From NCBI RefSeq assembly GCF_023277745.1, contig NZ_CP086322.1:4898001-4962000 (forward strand): a DNA stretch of 64,000 nucleotides. The letters run 5' to 3'. The DNA comes from Streptomyces halobius (lineage in GTDB: Bacteria > Actinomycetota > Actinomycetes > Streptomycetales > Streptomycetaceae). Made by a program: the position numbers and the translations under genes. The notes under the pieces were generated by a model, which was given only the letters and a program-made list of their open reading frames with translations, was not told the origin of the DNA and did no database searches. How positions within the stretch are numbered: position 1 is the first letter of the stretch; each line of letters opens with the position of its first letter. Below are positions 30,601 through 36,569 of the stretch, piece after piece.

Positions 30601-31179
30601 TCAGACCTCGTCCGGCGGGTCTGTTGCGTGGGGAAGCAAGGGGAACAGCCGGGTGATCAGGGCCACCGGTCGGGCGCCGTCAGGCCGGGCCAGGGGGCGC
30701 TGTTCGCGGTCTTGGTAGGGCACGAGCGCCCGTCGGAGGACGTCCGCGACCTGGCCCATCTCTTCGGGCGTCAGGTAGGCGACGGCGCTGAAGGCTTCGT
30801 CGTGCCGCCATTCGGTCGGCGCTTGGTCGCGTTGGGCGAGCCATCGCTGCCAGCTTTCGTCCTCCAGCCCTCGAGCCAAGTCGCCGAAATGTTCCTCCAC
30901 GGGTGCACCGACGGCGGGATTGTGCTGCCTCAGGCGCCAAGGGCGTGCGCGACCCCCGCGGTGAGGGGCCTCCTCGATATGGCCGTGGCGTGCGAGCTGC
31001 CGAAGGTGGAACGAGCAAAGCCCAGAGCTGTAGCCCAGTCTGGCGGCGGCTTCGGTCGCAGTGACGGTGCCGACTTCAGCCAGCAGGTCCAGTAGGGCCG
31101 TGCGGACCTCGTGCACGCGCAGTTCGTCACCGGTGTCCGGTTTCTGGTCGGGCTGGGAGTAGAGGTCATCTTCAGTCAC
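30601..31179 (-). CDS. ArsR-like winged-helix regulator
   Basis: A 192-residue protein. The helix-turn-helix (RVHEVRTALLDLLAEVGTVTATEAAARLGYSSGLCSFHLRQLARHGHIEEA) is of the ArsR/HTH_20 type. The C-terminal part (SWQRWLAQRDQAPTEWRHDEAFSAVAYLTPEEMGQVADVLRRAL) matches large Streptomyces ArsR proteins. The likely GTG start at 31179 lies inside one of two CTTTGCAAAG operators and has no RBS, so the transcript may be leaderless. It is divergent from a peptide deformylase gene, which it probably controls. Confidence 0.82.
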   Translation of the reverse strand: MTEDDLYSQPDQKPDTGDELRVHEVRTALLDLLAEVGTVTATEAAARLGYSSGLCSFHLRQLARHGHIEEAPHRGGRARPWRLRQHNPAVGAPVEEHFGDLARGLEDESWQRWLAQRDQAPTEWRHDEAFSAVAYLTPEEMGQVADVLRRALVPYQDREQRPLARPDGARPVALITRLFPLLPHATDPPDEV

Positions 31180-31205
31180 TTTGCAAAGTCTGCTACTTTG
31201 CAAAG
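31178..31205. promoter_or_regulatory. Twin palindromic operator of the ArsR / deformylase divergon
   Basis: CTTTGCAAAG occurs at 31179-31188 and 31196-31205, 17 bp apart. The first copy overlaps the ArsR GTG start codon. Confidence 0.7.
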
Positions 31206-31290
31206 ACCTTGGCAAGCGGTTCTTGCTCGGAGGCATCAGGCCGCGGTGACGACCGTGGCGTATGTGGCGTGCGCAGAAGGGGAGACAGCG

Positions 31291-31953
31291 ATGTCTGTTC
31301 GTCACGACCGGTCCCGTCCCGTAGACCGGCGAGTCCGTGTGCAGGGCCGCCCCGTCGACTCGTATCCAGTGCTGCCGCCGGAGGCGGAACGGGGTTCGGT
31401 TCGGCGGGTCGCGGTGGTGGGTGAGGAGATCCTGAGCCATCCGTGCCAGGTGGTGACCGAATTCGGCTCTCCCGAGTTGTCGGCGTTAATCGACGACATG
31501 TTCCTGACGATGCATGTGGCCGACGGTGCCGGACTCGCGGCCAACCAGGTAGGGGTCGGCCTGCGGCTGTTCGTGTATGACTGCCCGGACGACTATGGGA
31601 TCCGGCATGTCGGCCACATCATCAACCCGGTTCTTGGCCTGCCCGATCCGGGTAGCCGCCGACTCGTTGACGAATTCGAGGGCTGCCTGTCCGTGCCCGG
31701 TGCCGCCATGGCGGTTCCTCGCACCGACCGTGCCGTCGCTCGCGGGTTCGACAAGGACGGCAACCCTCTCGTCATCGAGGGGATGGGTTACTTCGCCCGG
31801 TGCCTGCAGCACGAGGCCGACCACCTCGTCGGCCACACGTATCTCGACCGGCTCTCCAAGCGGGACCGCAAGAACGCGTTGCGGCAGATGGAAGACCGGC
31901 GTGAGGACGTCTTCGTGCAACGCGCGGTCAAGGCCGCCCGTCTGGGCCGGTGA
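31291..31953 (+). CDS. def: Peptide deformylase, secondary copy with TTA codon
   Basis: A 220-residue iron/zinc enzyme that removes formyl groups from new protein N-termini. All three motifs are intact: GAGLAANQVG, EGCLSVPG (Cys132) and QHEADH (His174, His178). A 40-residue polar N-terminal extension precedes the domain. RBS GGGGAG is near-ideal. Codon 66 is TTA (31486-31488), which makes translation bldA-dependent; a housekeeping deformylase should not have this, so this is probably an additional copy. It is divergent from an ArsR-type regulator. Confidence 0.93.
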   Translation: MSVRHDRSRPVDRRVRVQGRPVDSYPVLPPEAERGSVRRVAVVGEEILSHPCQVVTEFGSPELSALIDDMFLTMHVADGAGLAANQVGVGLRLFVYDCPDDYGIRHVGHIINPVLGLPDPGSRRLVDEFEGCLSVPGAAMAVPRTDRAVARGFDKDGNPLVIEGMGYFARCLQHEADHLVGHTYLDRLSKRDRKNALRQMEDRREDVFVQRAVKAARLGR

Positions 31954-32046: not shown

Positions 32047-34773
32047 TCACGTCTGCGCCATATCCACGAACCGCGAGTAGTGCCCCTGGAACGCCACGGT
32101 GATCGTCGCCGTCGGGCCGTTACGGTGCTTCGCCACGATCAGGTCGGCCTCGCCCGCGCGTGGGGACTCCTTCTCGTAGGCGTCCTCGCGGTGCAGCAGG
32201 ATGACCATGTCGGCGTCCTGTTCGATGGAACCGGACTCACGCAGGTCGGAGACCATCGGCTTCTTGTCCGTACGCTGCTCCGGACCGCGGTTCAGCTGGG
32301 AGAGCGCGATCACCGGGAGCTCCAGCTCCTTCGCCAGAAGCTTGAGATTTCGGGACATATCCGAAACCTCCTGCTGCCGGCTCTCGGCACGCTTCGAACC
32401 ACCGGACTGCATCAGCTGCAGATAGTCGATGACCACCAGCTTCAGCTCATTGCGCTGCTTGAGCCGGCGGCACTTCGCGCGGATCTCCATCATCGACAGG
32501 TTCGGCGAGTCGTCGATGTAGAGCGGTGCGGCCGAGACATCCGGCATGCGGCGCGCCAGCCGCGTCCAGTCCTCGTCCGTCATGCTGCCGGACCGCATGT
32601 GATGCAGCGCCACCCGGGCCTCCGCGGACAGCAGGCGCATCGCGATCTCATTGCGCCCCATCTCCAGCGAGAAGATCACGCTCGGCAGATTGCTCCTGAT
32701 CGAGCAGGCGCGCGCGAAGTCCAGGGCCAGAGTGGAGTTGTGTGTAGGTACCATCGACCGAGTGGCCAAGTACATGTGATCCGGATTGTCCACCTGGACA
32801 CAGCGGACCGGGACGCTCGCAATCTCCCGGACATCGGCGATGAAGCGATGTCGCAGCTTCGGGGTGCCAGGGCGCCTGCGCTCTTCGTGCACACGCCGCT
32901 TCCGCTCCGACGCGAATACGTCATCGGTCGGTGTGAAAGTGACGAGGTACGCGGTGGACGACTCCTCGGAGCGGCCCTTGACCGGCTTCGCCCTCATGCC
33001 GCACCGATAGCCGAGGCTGACGACCAGCTCACGAAAACCTTCGGCCAGCGCCCTGTTGGTGACAGCGAACTGCACTGACCCGGTGTTCGTGACGGTTCCG
33101 TCAGTGTCCAAAAGCCCGGCGAGCAGTTCCCTCCGCTGGGCGATGGAGCTCCGAAGGTACTCCTGAGGGATGTGCTTGTTCCCCAGGACGCCCATGTCCC
33201 GCAGCAGAACTTGCAGGCTGCCGTGGCTTCTGGCGCAAGTGGCACAACGGGGCTTCGAGAAGGGAGAAAAGCACACCTCCCCACAGTCGACACATGTGGC
33301 GTGAGGAACCGGAGCGGAAACGGATCTCGCTCCGCCCCCACACGGCTTTCCACAGCTTCGCACATGGGCGAGCTTGGGTACGAAGATCTTCCCGCAAACG
33401 ACGCAGGACCGCTCGAGCAGCTCCGGATCCTCGACAGAGAACCGGACGCCGTAGGTGATCGACGAACCTGCGCGGCGAACCTCGAAGCCCTCTTCCGCGA
33501 TGCGCTGTACGACCGCCGGGTCCGCCGAGGTGATCCTTGAAGCATCGCTGTGACCGTCCCCGAGCCATGCGCCCAGCGTGTACGGAGGAACGGGCAGATC
33601 CCGGTGAGGAAGGTCCAGCGCGGCCACGTTCCTCACAGTGTGGTTCTTGCGCCGGTCGTCTGTGGTGCAGTGCAGCGTCGCAGCGATTTCCTTGGTGGTC
33701 TTGACGGAGGCGAAGGTGCGCTGGGTGCGGTAGCCGTTGTGCCCAGCTGCCGCGGCCTGGGCAGTCCTGCGCGAAGCCCGGGTGTCGGTGAGCCATTGGT
33801 GATCCGCATCCGCGATGACGCGCGTGCCGTCGTCGAAAGCCACCTCGTAGCAGGGTCGCCCGGTCATGACGTCGGTGGCAGCGACCACACGTGTCGGCTG
33901 CCCCGTTGCGTCGAGGAGATAATCACCGGGCTTGACCTCGCCCATCGTGGTCCACCCGGTAGGGGTGGGCAGGGGAGTGTCGAGAGCGAGGGCCTTACCC
34001 ATGGCGGGACGGGCCGCGATAACGACCATCTGGCCCGGGTGCAGGCCGTTCGTCAGCGAATCCAGGTCCGTGAAGCCGGTGGGTACGCCGGTCATCTGGC
34101 CCTGGCGCGAGCCGATCGCCTCGATCTCGTCGAGGGCGCCCTCCATGATGTCGCCGAGCGGCAGATAGTCCTCGCTGGTCCGCTGCTCGGTGACGGCGTA
34201 GATCTCCGCCTGGGCGCTGTTGACGATCTCGTCGACGTCGCCGTCCGCGGCGTATCCCATCTGCGTGATCCGGGTACCGGCCTCGACGAGGCGGCGCAGC
34301 ACGGCCCGTTCGTGGACGATCTCGGCGTAGTACTCGGCGTTCGCGGCCGTCGGCACGGACTGGACGAGCGTGTGCAGATACGAGGCGCCGCCGACCCGCC
34401 CGATCTCCCCGCGTTTGGTCAGCTCCGCGGCGATGGTGATCGGGTCGGCCGGCTCGCCCTTGGCGTACAGATCGAGGATCGCCTGGTAGACCAGCTCATG
34501 GGCCGGTCTGTAGAAGTCTTCGCCCTTGAGGACCTCGACGACGTCCGCGATGGCGTCCTTGGACAGCAGCATGCCGCCGAGCACCGACTGCTCGGCGTCC
34601 AGATCCTGCGGGGGCACCCGCTCGAAGCTGCCGGCCCAGGAACCGCCGCCGTCGTCGCGGTCCGGCCGGTCGCCGCGGCCCTTGCCGTCGCCTCGGCGGG
34701 AGCGGGGGGCCGGCAGCCGGTCGCCCGGACCGGAGTCCGCCCAGGGGTCTTCCATGGGCTCGGGCACGCTCAC
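32047..34773 (-). CDS. dnaB: Replicative DNA helicase DnaB, intein-containing precursor
   Basis: Hexameric replication-fork helicase. The 908-residue precursor contains a 419-residue intein (residues 261-679); the spliced helicase is 489 residues. The N-terminal domain begins at VPPQDLDAEQSVLGGMLLSKDAIADV. The Walker A is split: ARPAMGK before the intein, STLALDFA after it. Downstream are the DnaB motifs VIFSLEMGRNEIAMRLL, LKLVVIDYLQLM (Walker B), LPVIALSQLNRGPEQR and DLRESGSIEQDADMVILLHRED. GTG 34773 has GGAGGAGG at good spacing; the frame is open further upstream but that stretch has no RBS. Without splicing the ATPase cannot form. Confidence 0.97.
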   Translation of the reverse strand: MSVPEPMEDPWADSGPGDRLPAPRSRRGDGKGRGDRPDRDDGGGSWAGSFERVPPQDLDAEQSVLGGMLLSKDAIADVVEVLKGEDFYRPAHELVYQAILDLYAKGEPADPITIAAELTKRGEIGRVGGASYLHTLVQSVPTAANAEYYAEIVHERAVLRRLVEAGTRITQMGYAADGDVDEIVNSAQAEIYAVTEQRTSEDYLPLGDIMEGALDEIEAIGSRQGQMTGVPTGFTDLDSLTNGLHPGQMVVIAARPAMGKALALDTPLPTPTGWTTMGEVKPGDYLLDATGQPTRVVAATDVMTGRPCYEVAFDDGTRVIADADHQWLTDTRASRRTAQAAAAGHNGYRTQRTFASVKTTKEIAATLHCTTDDRRKNHTVRNVAALDLPHRDLPVPPYTLGAWLGDGHSDASRITSADPAVVQRIAEEGFEVRRAGSSITYGVRFSVEDPELLERSCVVCGKIFVPKLAHVRSCGKPCGGGARSVSAPVPHATCVDCGEVCFSPFSKPRCATCARSHGSLQVLLRDMGVLGNKHIPQEYLRSSIAQRRELLAGLLDTDGTVTNTGSVQFAVTNRALAEGFRELVVSLGYRCGMRAKPVKGRSEESSTAYLVTFTPTDDVFASERKRRVHEERRRPGTPKLRHRFIADVREIASVPVRCVQVDNPDHMYLATRSMVPTHNSTLALDFARACSIRSNLPSVIFSLEMGRNEIAMRLLSAEARVALHHMRSGSMTDEDWTRLARRMPDVSAAPLYIDDSPNLSMMEIRAKCRRLKQRNELKLVVIDYLQLMQSGGSKRAESRQQEVSDMSRNLKLLAKELELPVIALSQLNRGPEQRTDKKPMVSDLRESGSIEQDADMVILLHREDAYEKESPRAGEADLIVAKHRNGPTATITVAFQGHYSRFVDMAQT
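32737..33993 (-). mobile_element. Class 3 DnaB intein with LAGLIDADG homing endonuclease
   Basis: Inserted exactly between Lys and Ser of the DnaB P-loop. It begins with Ala (ALALDTPLPTPTGW), not Cys or Ser, and ends VPTHN before Ser+1. It has the class 3 triad: Trp67 (block B, DHQWL), Cys398 (block F, VRCVQVDNPDHMYL) and Thr417 (block G). Endonuclease motifs are LGAWLGDGH (140-148) and LLAGLLDTDG (290-299). Between them lies a Cys-rich insert (about 195-255): CVVCG...CGKPC, then CVDCG...CATC. Both endonuclease motifs keep an acidic residue, so homing activity is possible. Confidence 0.9.
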
Positions 34774-35231
34774 CCCGGCACCTCCTCCCGTCCGCGACGC
34801 GGACCTTGCTGTGCTCTTCTTTCTTACGGCACAGCTCTGACAATCGAGACGCCCGACTCCGGTTACGGCGCGTCGAGTTCGGACGCTTTCTCGGGCCGGA
34901 TCGGGCGGCGGGCGCCGGACCACGGTAGGCCCGGCGGCACCGTCCGCCAATCTGGTTATCCACAGGCCATGTGGATGACCGGCCCATAGCTGTGGAGAAG
35001 TCCCCGGATCCTGTGCACGGCGCGGGGGAAACTTCTGTGGACAAGCACACAATCAGCCCGTCCACACCCCTCTGACCTGCGGTTTCCTCATTCAGAGCCT
35101 GTGGGGGAGAAAAACTTCGGCAACCTGTTCAAGATCGCGACAAACAGCACGCAGGAGGTAACTCCACACAGCGGAGAGTAAGGACCACAAGCGTATTGCG
35201 TCTATTACCTGTGGAAGATTAGATTGACCGC
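34774..35231. other. 458-bp region upstream of dnaB with DnaA-box-like repeats
   Basis: No gene. DnaA-box-like nonamers are TTATCCACA (34956-34964, +) and, on the minus strand, TCATCCACA (34970-34978), TTCTCCACA (34991-34999), TTGTCCACA (35036-35044, perfect Streptomyces consensus) and TCTTCCACA (35210-35218). CCGTCCACA is at 35058-35066 (+). The promoters of dnaB and the MATE gene must also be here. Confidence 0.65.
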
Positions 35232-36569
35232 ATGACACTGGCTCCCGCGGCACCACGGCGCACCGCCCGCCGCCACGACCGCGAGATCCTCGCTCTCGCC
35301 CTGCCGGCGTTCGGCTCCCTTGTGGCCGAACCCCTCTTCGTCATGGTCGACAGCGCCGTCATCGGCCACCTCGGCACCCCTCAGCTCGCCGGCCTGGGCG
35401 TCGCGGCCGCGCTCCTGACCACCGCCGTGTCCGTCTTCGTCTTCCTCGCCTACGCCACCACCGCCGCGGTCGCCCGCAGAGTCGGCGCCGGCGATCTCCC
35501 CGCCGCCATCCGCCAGGGCATGGACGGCATCTGGCTCGCCCTCCTCCTCGGCGTCGCCGTCGTCGCGGCCGTGCTGCCCACCGCCCCGTGGCTCGTCGAA
35601 GCCTTCGGCGCCTCCGGCACCGCGGCCCCGCATGCGACGACCTACCTGCGCATCAGCGCCCTCGGCATCCCCGCGATGCTCGTCGTGCTCGCCGCCACCG
35701 GCGTCCTCCGCGGTCTCCAGGACACCCGGACCCCGCTCTACGTCGCCATCGGCGGATTCTCCGCCAACGCCGCGCTGAACGCCGGCCTGGTCTACGGTGC
35801 CGGCCTCGGCATCGCGGGCTCCGCCTGGGGCACCGTCATCGCCCAGTCCGCCATGGCCGCCGCCTACCTCGCCGTCGTGGTCCGCGGCGCGCGGCGGCAC
35901 GGTGCCTCGCTGCGCCCCGACGCGGCCGGGATCCGCGCCTGTGCACAGGCCGGCGCCCCGCTGCTGGTCCGCACCCTCTCGCTGCGCGCGGTGCTGATGA
36001 TCGCCACCGCCGTGGCCGCCCGGCTCGGCGACGCCGAGGTCGCCGCCCACCAGATCGTGCTCACCCTCTGGTCGCTGCTGGCCTTCGCCCTGGACTCCAT
36101 AGCCATCGCCGGGCAGGCCATCATAGGCCGCTATCTCGGGGCGGGGGACCGGGACGGCGCCAAGGCCGCCTGCCGCCGCATGGTGCAGTGGGGCATCGCT
36201 TCCGGTCTGGTCCTCGGCGTACTTGTCGCGCTCGCCCGACCGCTGTTCATCCCCTTGTTCACCACCGACCCCGACGTACAGGGCCCGCTGCTCACCACAC
36301 TTCTGGTGGTGGCGGTCAGCCAGCCGGTCTCCGGCATCGTCTTCATCCTCGACGGCGTCCTGATGGGCGCGGGGGACGGGCCGTATCTCGCCTGGGCGAT
36401 GGTCGTGACGCTCGCCCTGTTCGTACCCGTCGCACTGGCCGTCCCCGCCCTCGGCGGCGGACTGGTCGCCCTCTGGTGGGCCATGGCGCTGATGATGACG
36501 GTGCGCATGCTGACGCTGTGGCTGCGCACCCGATCGGGCCGGTGGATTGTGACCGGGGCCTCTCGTTGA
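35232..36569 (+). CDS. MATE family efflux transporter (DinF type)
   Basis: A 445-residue, 12-helix antiporter exporting drugs or metabolites. Family marks are EILALALPAFGSLVAEPLFVMVDSAVIGHLGTPQLAGLGVA, RGLQDTRTPLYVAIGGFSANAALNAGLVYG and DSIAIAGQAIIGRYLGAGD. The ATG has no strong RBS and lies close to a TAGATT-like -10, so the mRNA leader may be very short. It is next to dnaB, divergent, as in related Streptomyces. Confidence 0.92.
   Translation: MTLAPAAPRRTARRHDREILALALPAFGSLVAEPLFVMVDSAVIGHLGTPQLAGLGVAAALLTTAVSVFVFLAYATTAAVARRVGAGDLPAAIRQGMDGIWLALLLGVAVVAAVLPTAPWLVEAFGASGTAAPHATTYLRISALGIPAMLVVLAATGVLRGLQDTRTPLYVAIGGFSANAALNAGLVYGAGLGIAGSAWGTVIAQSAMAAAYLAVVVRGARRHGASLRPDAAGIRACAQAGAPLLVRTLSLRAVLMIATAVAARLGDAEVAAHQIVLTLWSLLAFALDSIAIAGQAIIGRYLGAGDRDGAKAACRRMVQWGIASGLVLGVLVALARPLFIPLFTTDPDVQGPLLTTLLVVAVSQPVSGIVFILDGVLMGAGDGPYLAWAMVVTLALFVPVALAVPALGGGLVALWWAMALMMTVRMLTLWLRTRSGRWIVTGASR

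Follow-up and report, generated by a model that had tools for sequence, protein, structure and literature searches.

A full-length class 3 intein with a LAGLIDADG endonuclease and a cysteine-rich insert at the P-loop of Streptomyces halobius DnaB

We analysed a 64,000-nucleotide stretch of the Streptomyces halobius chromosome (NZ_CP086322.1, positions 4,898,001 to 4,962,000; hereafter the window), which lies in a 9.24-Mb genome on a single contig, and found that its replicative helicase gene, dnaB, is interrupted at the P-loop site, DnaB-b, by a full-length class 3 intein that, judging from its sequence, very probably splices. The intein, read from the translation of positions 32737 to 33993 (minus strand, as are all features of dnaB given below), comprises 419 amino acids (aa) free of stop codons, starts with ALALDTPLPTP, and is flanked on the N side by ARPAMGK, the N-extein end of the Walker A motif (33994..34014), and on the C side by STLALDFAR, so that the insertion point falls between GK and S of Walker A, as is characteristic of DnaB-b. 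The open reading frame (ORF; 32047-35052, 1001 aa) begins upstream of the likely start of the gene, which is either GTG 34773 or ATG 34755, the latter being that of the database model; from the GTG, the precursor gene (32047..34773) encodes the DnaB N domain and an ATPase domain split by the intein. The whole ORF matched the DnaB model TIGR00665 across the insert (model positions 2-434 of 435, 1.1e-161). The insert is not clearly set apart by composition, since its G+C content is 64.8%, compared with 69.5% and 65.1% for the N- and C-exteins and 68.6% for the window.

The residues that define class 3 inteins are all present. Position 1 (33991..33993) is Ala, which is not a nucleophile, and Ala is found there in all 147 aligned DnaB-b inteins. 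Block B has the core Asp62-x-x-His65-x-Trp67 (33793..33810; DHQWL from residue 64), block F (32770..32805; RCVQVDNPD from residue 397) contains Cys398, the predicted initiating nucleophile, and block G ends in Thr417-His418-Asn419 (32737..32745; PTHN from residue 416). When aligned with the solved structures 6bs8 and 6rix, Trp67, Cys398 and Thr417 occupy positions B:12, F:4 and G:5 of the Trp-Cys-Thr (WCT) triad; the same Trp67 numbering is shared by the M. smegmatis DnaB-1, M. leprae DnaB and Burkholderia IcmO inteins (PMC5222942). Phmmer comparison with solved class 3 DnaB inteins gave E values of 1.4e-41 to 1.1e-39, and the predicted Hedgehog/intein (HINT) fold resembles those of solved class 3 inteins, which are its nearest solved splicing domains. 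A preliminary description of this DNA had proposed an insert splitting the P-loop between GK and S, an Ala start and the Trp67/Cys398/Thr417 triad; translation and alignment bear this out with every named position exact, the class 3 assignment gains support from the phmmer and fold matches, and the alignment with a nucleophile at residue 1 that would have spoken against it did not appear. Its comparison with close relatives also came out in favour, as uninterrupted dnaB junction codons in most genomes of the genus (see below) indicate a real insert rather than a chance reading.

Splicing through a block F branched intermediate has been shown for the DnaB inteins of M. smegmatis and M. leprae (PMC5222942). 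In the window intein, Cys398 would attack the Lys-Ala1 bond and accept the N-extein, which would then pass to Ser+1 (32734..32736), both C-extein nucleophile and Walker A serine in the role assigned to it in PMC6195587; cyclisation of Asn419 and ligation of the exteins would restore GKST. Before splicing the ATP-binding loop is split and DnaB should be inactive, and because the intein splits the P-loop, helicase activity would be expected to need splicing; Kelley 2018 called loss of ATPase function before splicing "reasonable to assume".

The intein also retains an embedded endonuclease of the LAGLIDADG type, with a fold match to PI-SceI. By motif position, Asp146 in the first motif (residues 139-147, 33553..33579) and Asp298 in the second, LAGLLDTDG (residues 291-299, 33097..33123), are the catalytic acids, and Pfam LAGLIDADG_3 was matched at intein residues 286-349; such an enzyme presumably cuts intein-free dnaB alleles, leading to the copying of the intein into them. 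Between the motifs lies a cysteine-rich insert (33235..33405) with nine Cys in residues 197-253, eight of which follow the pattern CxxC-x13-CxxxC and CxxC-x12-CxxC (C197, C200, C214, C218 and C234, C237, C250, C253), so that each module has two conserved paired-Cys knuckles, as in zinc ribbons, whereas the ninth, C241, is variable. The combined DnaB-b alignment of 147 rows (136 distinct sequences) was reduced to 145 by removing the second copies of two genomes (L065 from G190 and L071 from G045), other duplicates being kept; the eight-Cys set was complete in 111 of these and C241 was Cys in 63. Both acids were kept together with eight Cys in 105 inteins and with a broken set in 12, while an acid was lost together with eight Cys in 6 and with a broken set in 22, i.e. 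the insert was broken in 22 of the 28 inteins with a lost acid, in a tally of related sequences from a list ranked by likeness to the window intein. Independent pairs on an extein tree of 56 rows gave 4.5 to 0.0 (median p 0.06) for this association when tested one way and 4.2 to 0.1 (median p 0.125) when tested the other way. Because the paired test was one-sided in outcome and yet reached only these p values, the link between loss of the Cys insert and loss of the endonuclease acids is suggestive only. We read the insert as a part of the endonuclease, retained as long as the endonuclease is retained, and it probably folds as two zinc-ribbon-like modules, presumably binding zinc, that aid DNA binding or folding of the endonuclease.

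The splicing domain carries a further residue of interest, Cys48 (33850..33852), the counterpart of a redox cysteine of M. smegmatis DnaBi1. In that intein, oxidation forms a disulfide between Cys48, which was termed non-conserved, and the catalytic Cys118 (PMC6195587), and zinc blocks splicing through the ligands C118, V119 and Y128 (PMC7360933); C-48 was noted in M. leprae as well (PMC8557812). We found Cys48 in all 17 DnaB-b carriers of the genus (window included), in all 115 inteins extracted from 120 listed database matches (the window's own included; five could not be extracted), and in all 147 rows of the combined alignment. Among class 3 inteins from other hosts, with five further N-domain matches left out for failing a filter for W67 and the block F Cys, Cys48 was present in 234 of 317, the others having Leu (25), Val (21), Ala (10), Thr (10) or other residues (17); after clustering, it was present in 99 of 149 at 60% identity and 26 of 55 at 50%, and these counts are biased upward, as most of the sequences were obtained with three protein queries that have Cys48 themselves. 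The idea that Cys48 is a universal fourth class 3 residue was rejected on these counts. On the alignments, Cys48 is conserved in the DnaB-b lineage but is not singled out by invariance alone, because 137 DnaB-b inteins share 19 invariant positions, Cys48 among them, within residues 1-72. The counterparts of the zinc ligands, C398, V399 and Y408, are also present in the window intein (Val399 and Tyr408 within block F), with Val in 143 and Tyr in 145 of the 147 inteins. Together, Cys48 and Cys398-Val399-Tyr408 suggest a splicing reaction that oxidation and zinc could pause, as shown for M. smegmatis DnaBi1. The two responsive inteins of the cited papers are mini-inteins without an endonuclease, which the window intein, with its 419 aa and endonuclease, is not.

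An alternative, to which we give a little less than even weight, is that Cys48 is kept for folding of the splicing domain alone and has no redox role in the window intein. Its place among 19 invariant positions fits this alternative, as do the loss of splicing in M. smegmatis with each of the seven Cys48 substitutions tried (PMC6195587) and the distance of 11-12 A between the two cysteines in the M. smegmatis crystal; on the other hand, the Cys48-Cys118 disulfide was detected by mass spectrometry in M. smegmatis, and 83 of the 317 class 3 inteins counted in other hosts lack Cys at this place, arguing that the fold as such does not need it. A broader proposal, which we consider rather unlikely, is that the class 3 P-loop intein has long had its splicing controlled by redox state and zinc, already as a mobile element with an active endonuclease, so that this control would not be a later adaptation of mini-inteins without one. 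In this Streptomyces, oxidative stress would then pause replication via a Cys48-Cys398 disulfide in an intein still able to home, and through the zinc-binding insert of the endonuclease its mobility would depend on zinc as well.

It is also possible, though less likely than not, that the window intein is decaying, i.e. that it still splices while its endonuclease no longer cuts or homes. In the hosts whose exteins are nearest (S. albospinus, Streptomyces sp. CT34 and S. natalensis), the inteins are 332, 331 and 327 aa long, have no Cys insert and have lost one or both acids, and single-acid loss can occur between close alleles, as seen for Asp298 -> His in G390. The window intein, in contrast, keeps both acids and the complete set of eight conserved Cys, and the ratio of nonsynonymous to synonymous substitution (dN/dS) relative to Kitasatospora sp. 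MAP5-34 is only 0.24 and 0.15 in the two endonuclease parts and 0.07 in the Cys insert. Several observations weigh against an intact, mobile intein with a folded Cys insert. Relative to eight other relatives, the endonuclease parts appear less constrained, with dN/dS of 0.28-0.46 and 0.18-0.31, although these are rough values, some of the relatives being decayed and synonymous sites being partly saturated. The trees give no sign of recent horizontal movement, vertical descent with the nearest hosts not being rejected by the intein data (approximately unbiased [AU] test, p 0.54). The Cys insert alone gave no Pfam match, and it was poorly modelled in a first fold prediction, with a predicted local distance difference test (pLDDT) score of 40-60. 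When the entire 902-aa precursor was modelled from 71 rows (mean pLDDT 68.6, predicted template modelling score 0.45), the insert had short strands and a pLDDT of 81-88, with 60 for its linker, whereas the surroundings of the P-loop were too poor for conclusions on the helicase. A pair of close inteins, L039 and L040 (G213 and G390), differ in having Asp and His, respectively, as second catalytic acid, and their dN/dS in the second endonuclease half is 0.67, from few substitutions (proportion of synonymous differences 0.05), as if decay had just begun.

The extein and intein trees place the window differently. In the extein tree, it grouped with S. albospinus, Streptomyces sp. CT34 and S. natalensis (Shimodaira-Hasegawa-like approximate likelihood ratio test [SH-aLRT] 99), whereas in the intein tree it adjoined Kitasatospora sp. 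MAP5-34 in a group with Kitasatospora strain MAA4 and Streptomyces sp. NPDC018833 (SH-aLRT 94). The intein grouping was rejected by the extein data (AU p 7e-5). Vertical descent was not rejected by the intein data (p 0.54), and neither was a clade of all seven Kitasatospora inteins in the set (p 0.35); horizontal transfer from Kitasatospora is not claimed. Relative to the three sister hosts, the exteins have a synonymous divergence of 0.26-0.32, the splicing parts one of 0.39-0.42, with intervals overlapping those of the exteins, and the middle part one of 0.44-0.49, without such overlap. The excess in the middle part is no proof of transfer, because the same excess was seen between S. albospinus and CT34 (0.20 versus 0.10 in the exteins). 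Either the long form was retained by the window host while its sisters lost it, or it was reacquired.

To place the intein within the genus, we used a sample of 392 genomes drawn evenly from a larger group, the window's own genome included. Uninterrupted AMGKSTLALDFA codons were found in 371 of these, the other 21 being 17 carriers plus G073, G112, G134 and G149. The intein query matched 113 genomes, of which the 17 strongest are the DnaB-b carriers, each confirmed from its ORF, and the remainder were weaker. The carrier inteins span 272-419 aa; the Cys insert is whole in four, has shrunk in G232 to a remnant holding three of its eight Cys, and is lost in twelve. Outside the genus, the matches listed included Kitasatospora, Nocardiopsis, Mycolicibacterium, Saccharopolyspora, Kutzneria and Nocardia. 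DnaB-b inteins were stated to be without endonucleases in an account concerned with mycobacteria (PMC5050341), but this does not hold for the wider set, because two inteins labelled Mycolicibacterium (P0051 and P0059; 416 aa) keep both acids and all eight Cys. Four of the 17 carrier genes (L041, L046, L050 and L052) have a second, class 1-like insert at DnaB-a (RESG/C...HN/S, with slashes marking the junctions), which begins with Cys and, as read by eye, has Val or Thr at the place equivalent to Cys48. A class 1 or class 2 mode for the window intein itself, in which residue 1 would initiate splicing or the +1 residue would attack directly, is highly improbable: class 1 is the canonical pathway (PMC5050341) and Cys-starting inserts do occur in these four genes, but the window intein has Ala in place of the Cys or Ser of class 1 at residue 1, a complete WCT triad and class 3 inteins as its nearest solved splicing domains.

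Class 3 inteins, the DnaB-b site, a chromosomal location, and redox and zinc control in short forms are already known, and chromosomal dnaB class 3 inteins at this site have been characterised in Mycobacterium (PMC6195587, PMC5222942). The preliminary description was right that a chromosomal dnaB keeps the full residue set but overrated its novelty, full-length relatives in several other actinobacterial genera also being among the database matches; it was right on the intein class and made no mention of the endonuclease, the Cys-rich insert or Cys48. Our searches of open-access full text, which do not cover Tori and Perler 2011, returned no account of a Streptomyces DnaB-b intein, of its eight-Cys insert or of the conservation of Cys48. 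As read from its motifs, the window intein has kept a LAGLIDADG endonuclease together with its two catalytic acids, which sets it apart from the mycobacterial DnaB-b inteins of the cited papers. In those papers, conditional splicing of class 3 DnaB inteins was examined solely in the endonuclease-less M. smegmatis and M. leprae forms, and the authors suggested that such inteins may persist as host-serving sensors. A full-length allele with the same sensor residues, in a genus that includes laboratory hosts, makes this idea testable, and the coexistence of the endonuclease and the Cys48/zinc residues in one intein does the same for the question of whether control by redox state and zinc is older than the loss of the endonuclease. 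Two statements also need qualifying: DnaB-b inteins, those of Mycolicibacterium included, can carry an endonuclease, and Cys48 is a conserved residue within its lineage.

Other genes were observed in passing. In the window, dnaB is neighboured by genes for a peptide deformylase (31111-31950) and a MATE family transporter (35232-36566), both on the plus strand. Elsewhere in the same genome (C1, 848-853 kb; L055:3246-7607, plus strand), a 1454-aa AAA+ protein, read as ClpB-like, has two class 3-looking inteins of 462 and 381 aa, one per Walker A motif (GSGK/L...THN/T and GTGK/F...THN/T), neither with Cys at 48; for the second, the Cys one residue further on is an alternative start, and G127 carries both inteins too. 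A third class 3-looking intein (360 aa, Ala start) is in a 1708-aa TraG/VirD4-like conjugation coupling protein (C1, 855-860 kb; L055:9950-15073, plus strand), with similar ones in L056 (G127) and L057 (G289). Residue 1 was mapped in 234 class 3 inteins that do not belong to the DnaB-b list; the residues directly preceding it were GK in 120, DE in 31, NE in 19 and GE in 15, and the +1 residue was Ser in 126, Thr in 95, Cys in 12 and Gln in 1.

The window intein can be compared with several known systems. M. smegmatis DnaBi1/DnaB-1 (139 aa; PDB 6bs8, 6own) and M. leprae DnaB (145 aa) lack an endonuclease, and M. chimaera MchDnaB1 (PDB 6rix, 6riy), with 145 residues, has no room for one, whereas the window intein has 419 aa with a LAGLIDADG domain and Cys-rich insert. 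PI-SceI, the endonuclease of the yeast VMA1 intein, shares the fold of the window endonuclease at 14-22% identity, but the PI-SceI intein is of class 1. The mycobacteriophage class 3 terminase inteins of Gaia and Nebkiss share the class 3 residues, including the Cys48 counterpart (read in Nebkiss), but have a different extein, a site after NE and 32% identity to the window intein. DnaB inteins of full length in Kitasatospora, Nocardiopsis, Mycolicibacterium, Saccharopolyspora and Nocardia share the site and the splicing residues, with 59-84% identity among the matches listed; most have the endonuclease acids and eight Cys, and some alleles are without the insert or an acid.
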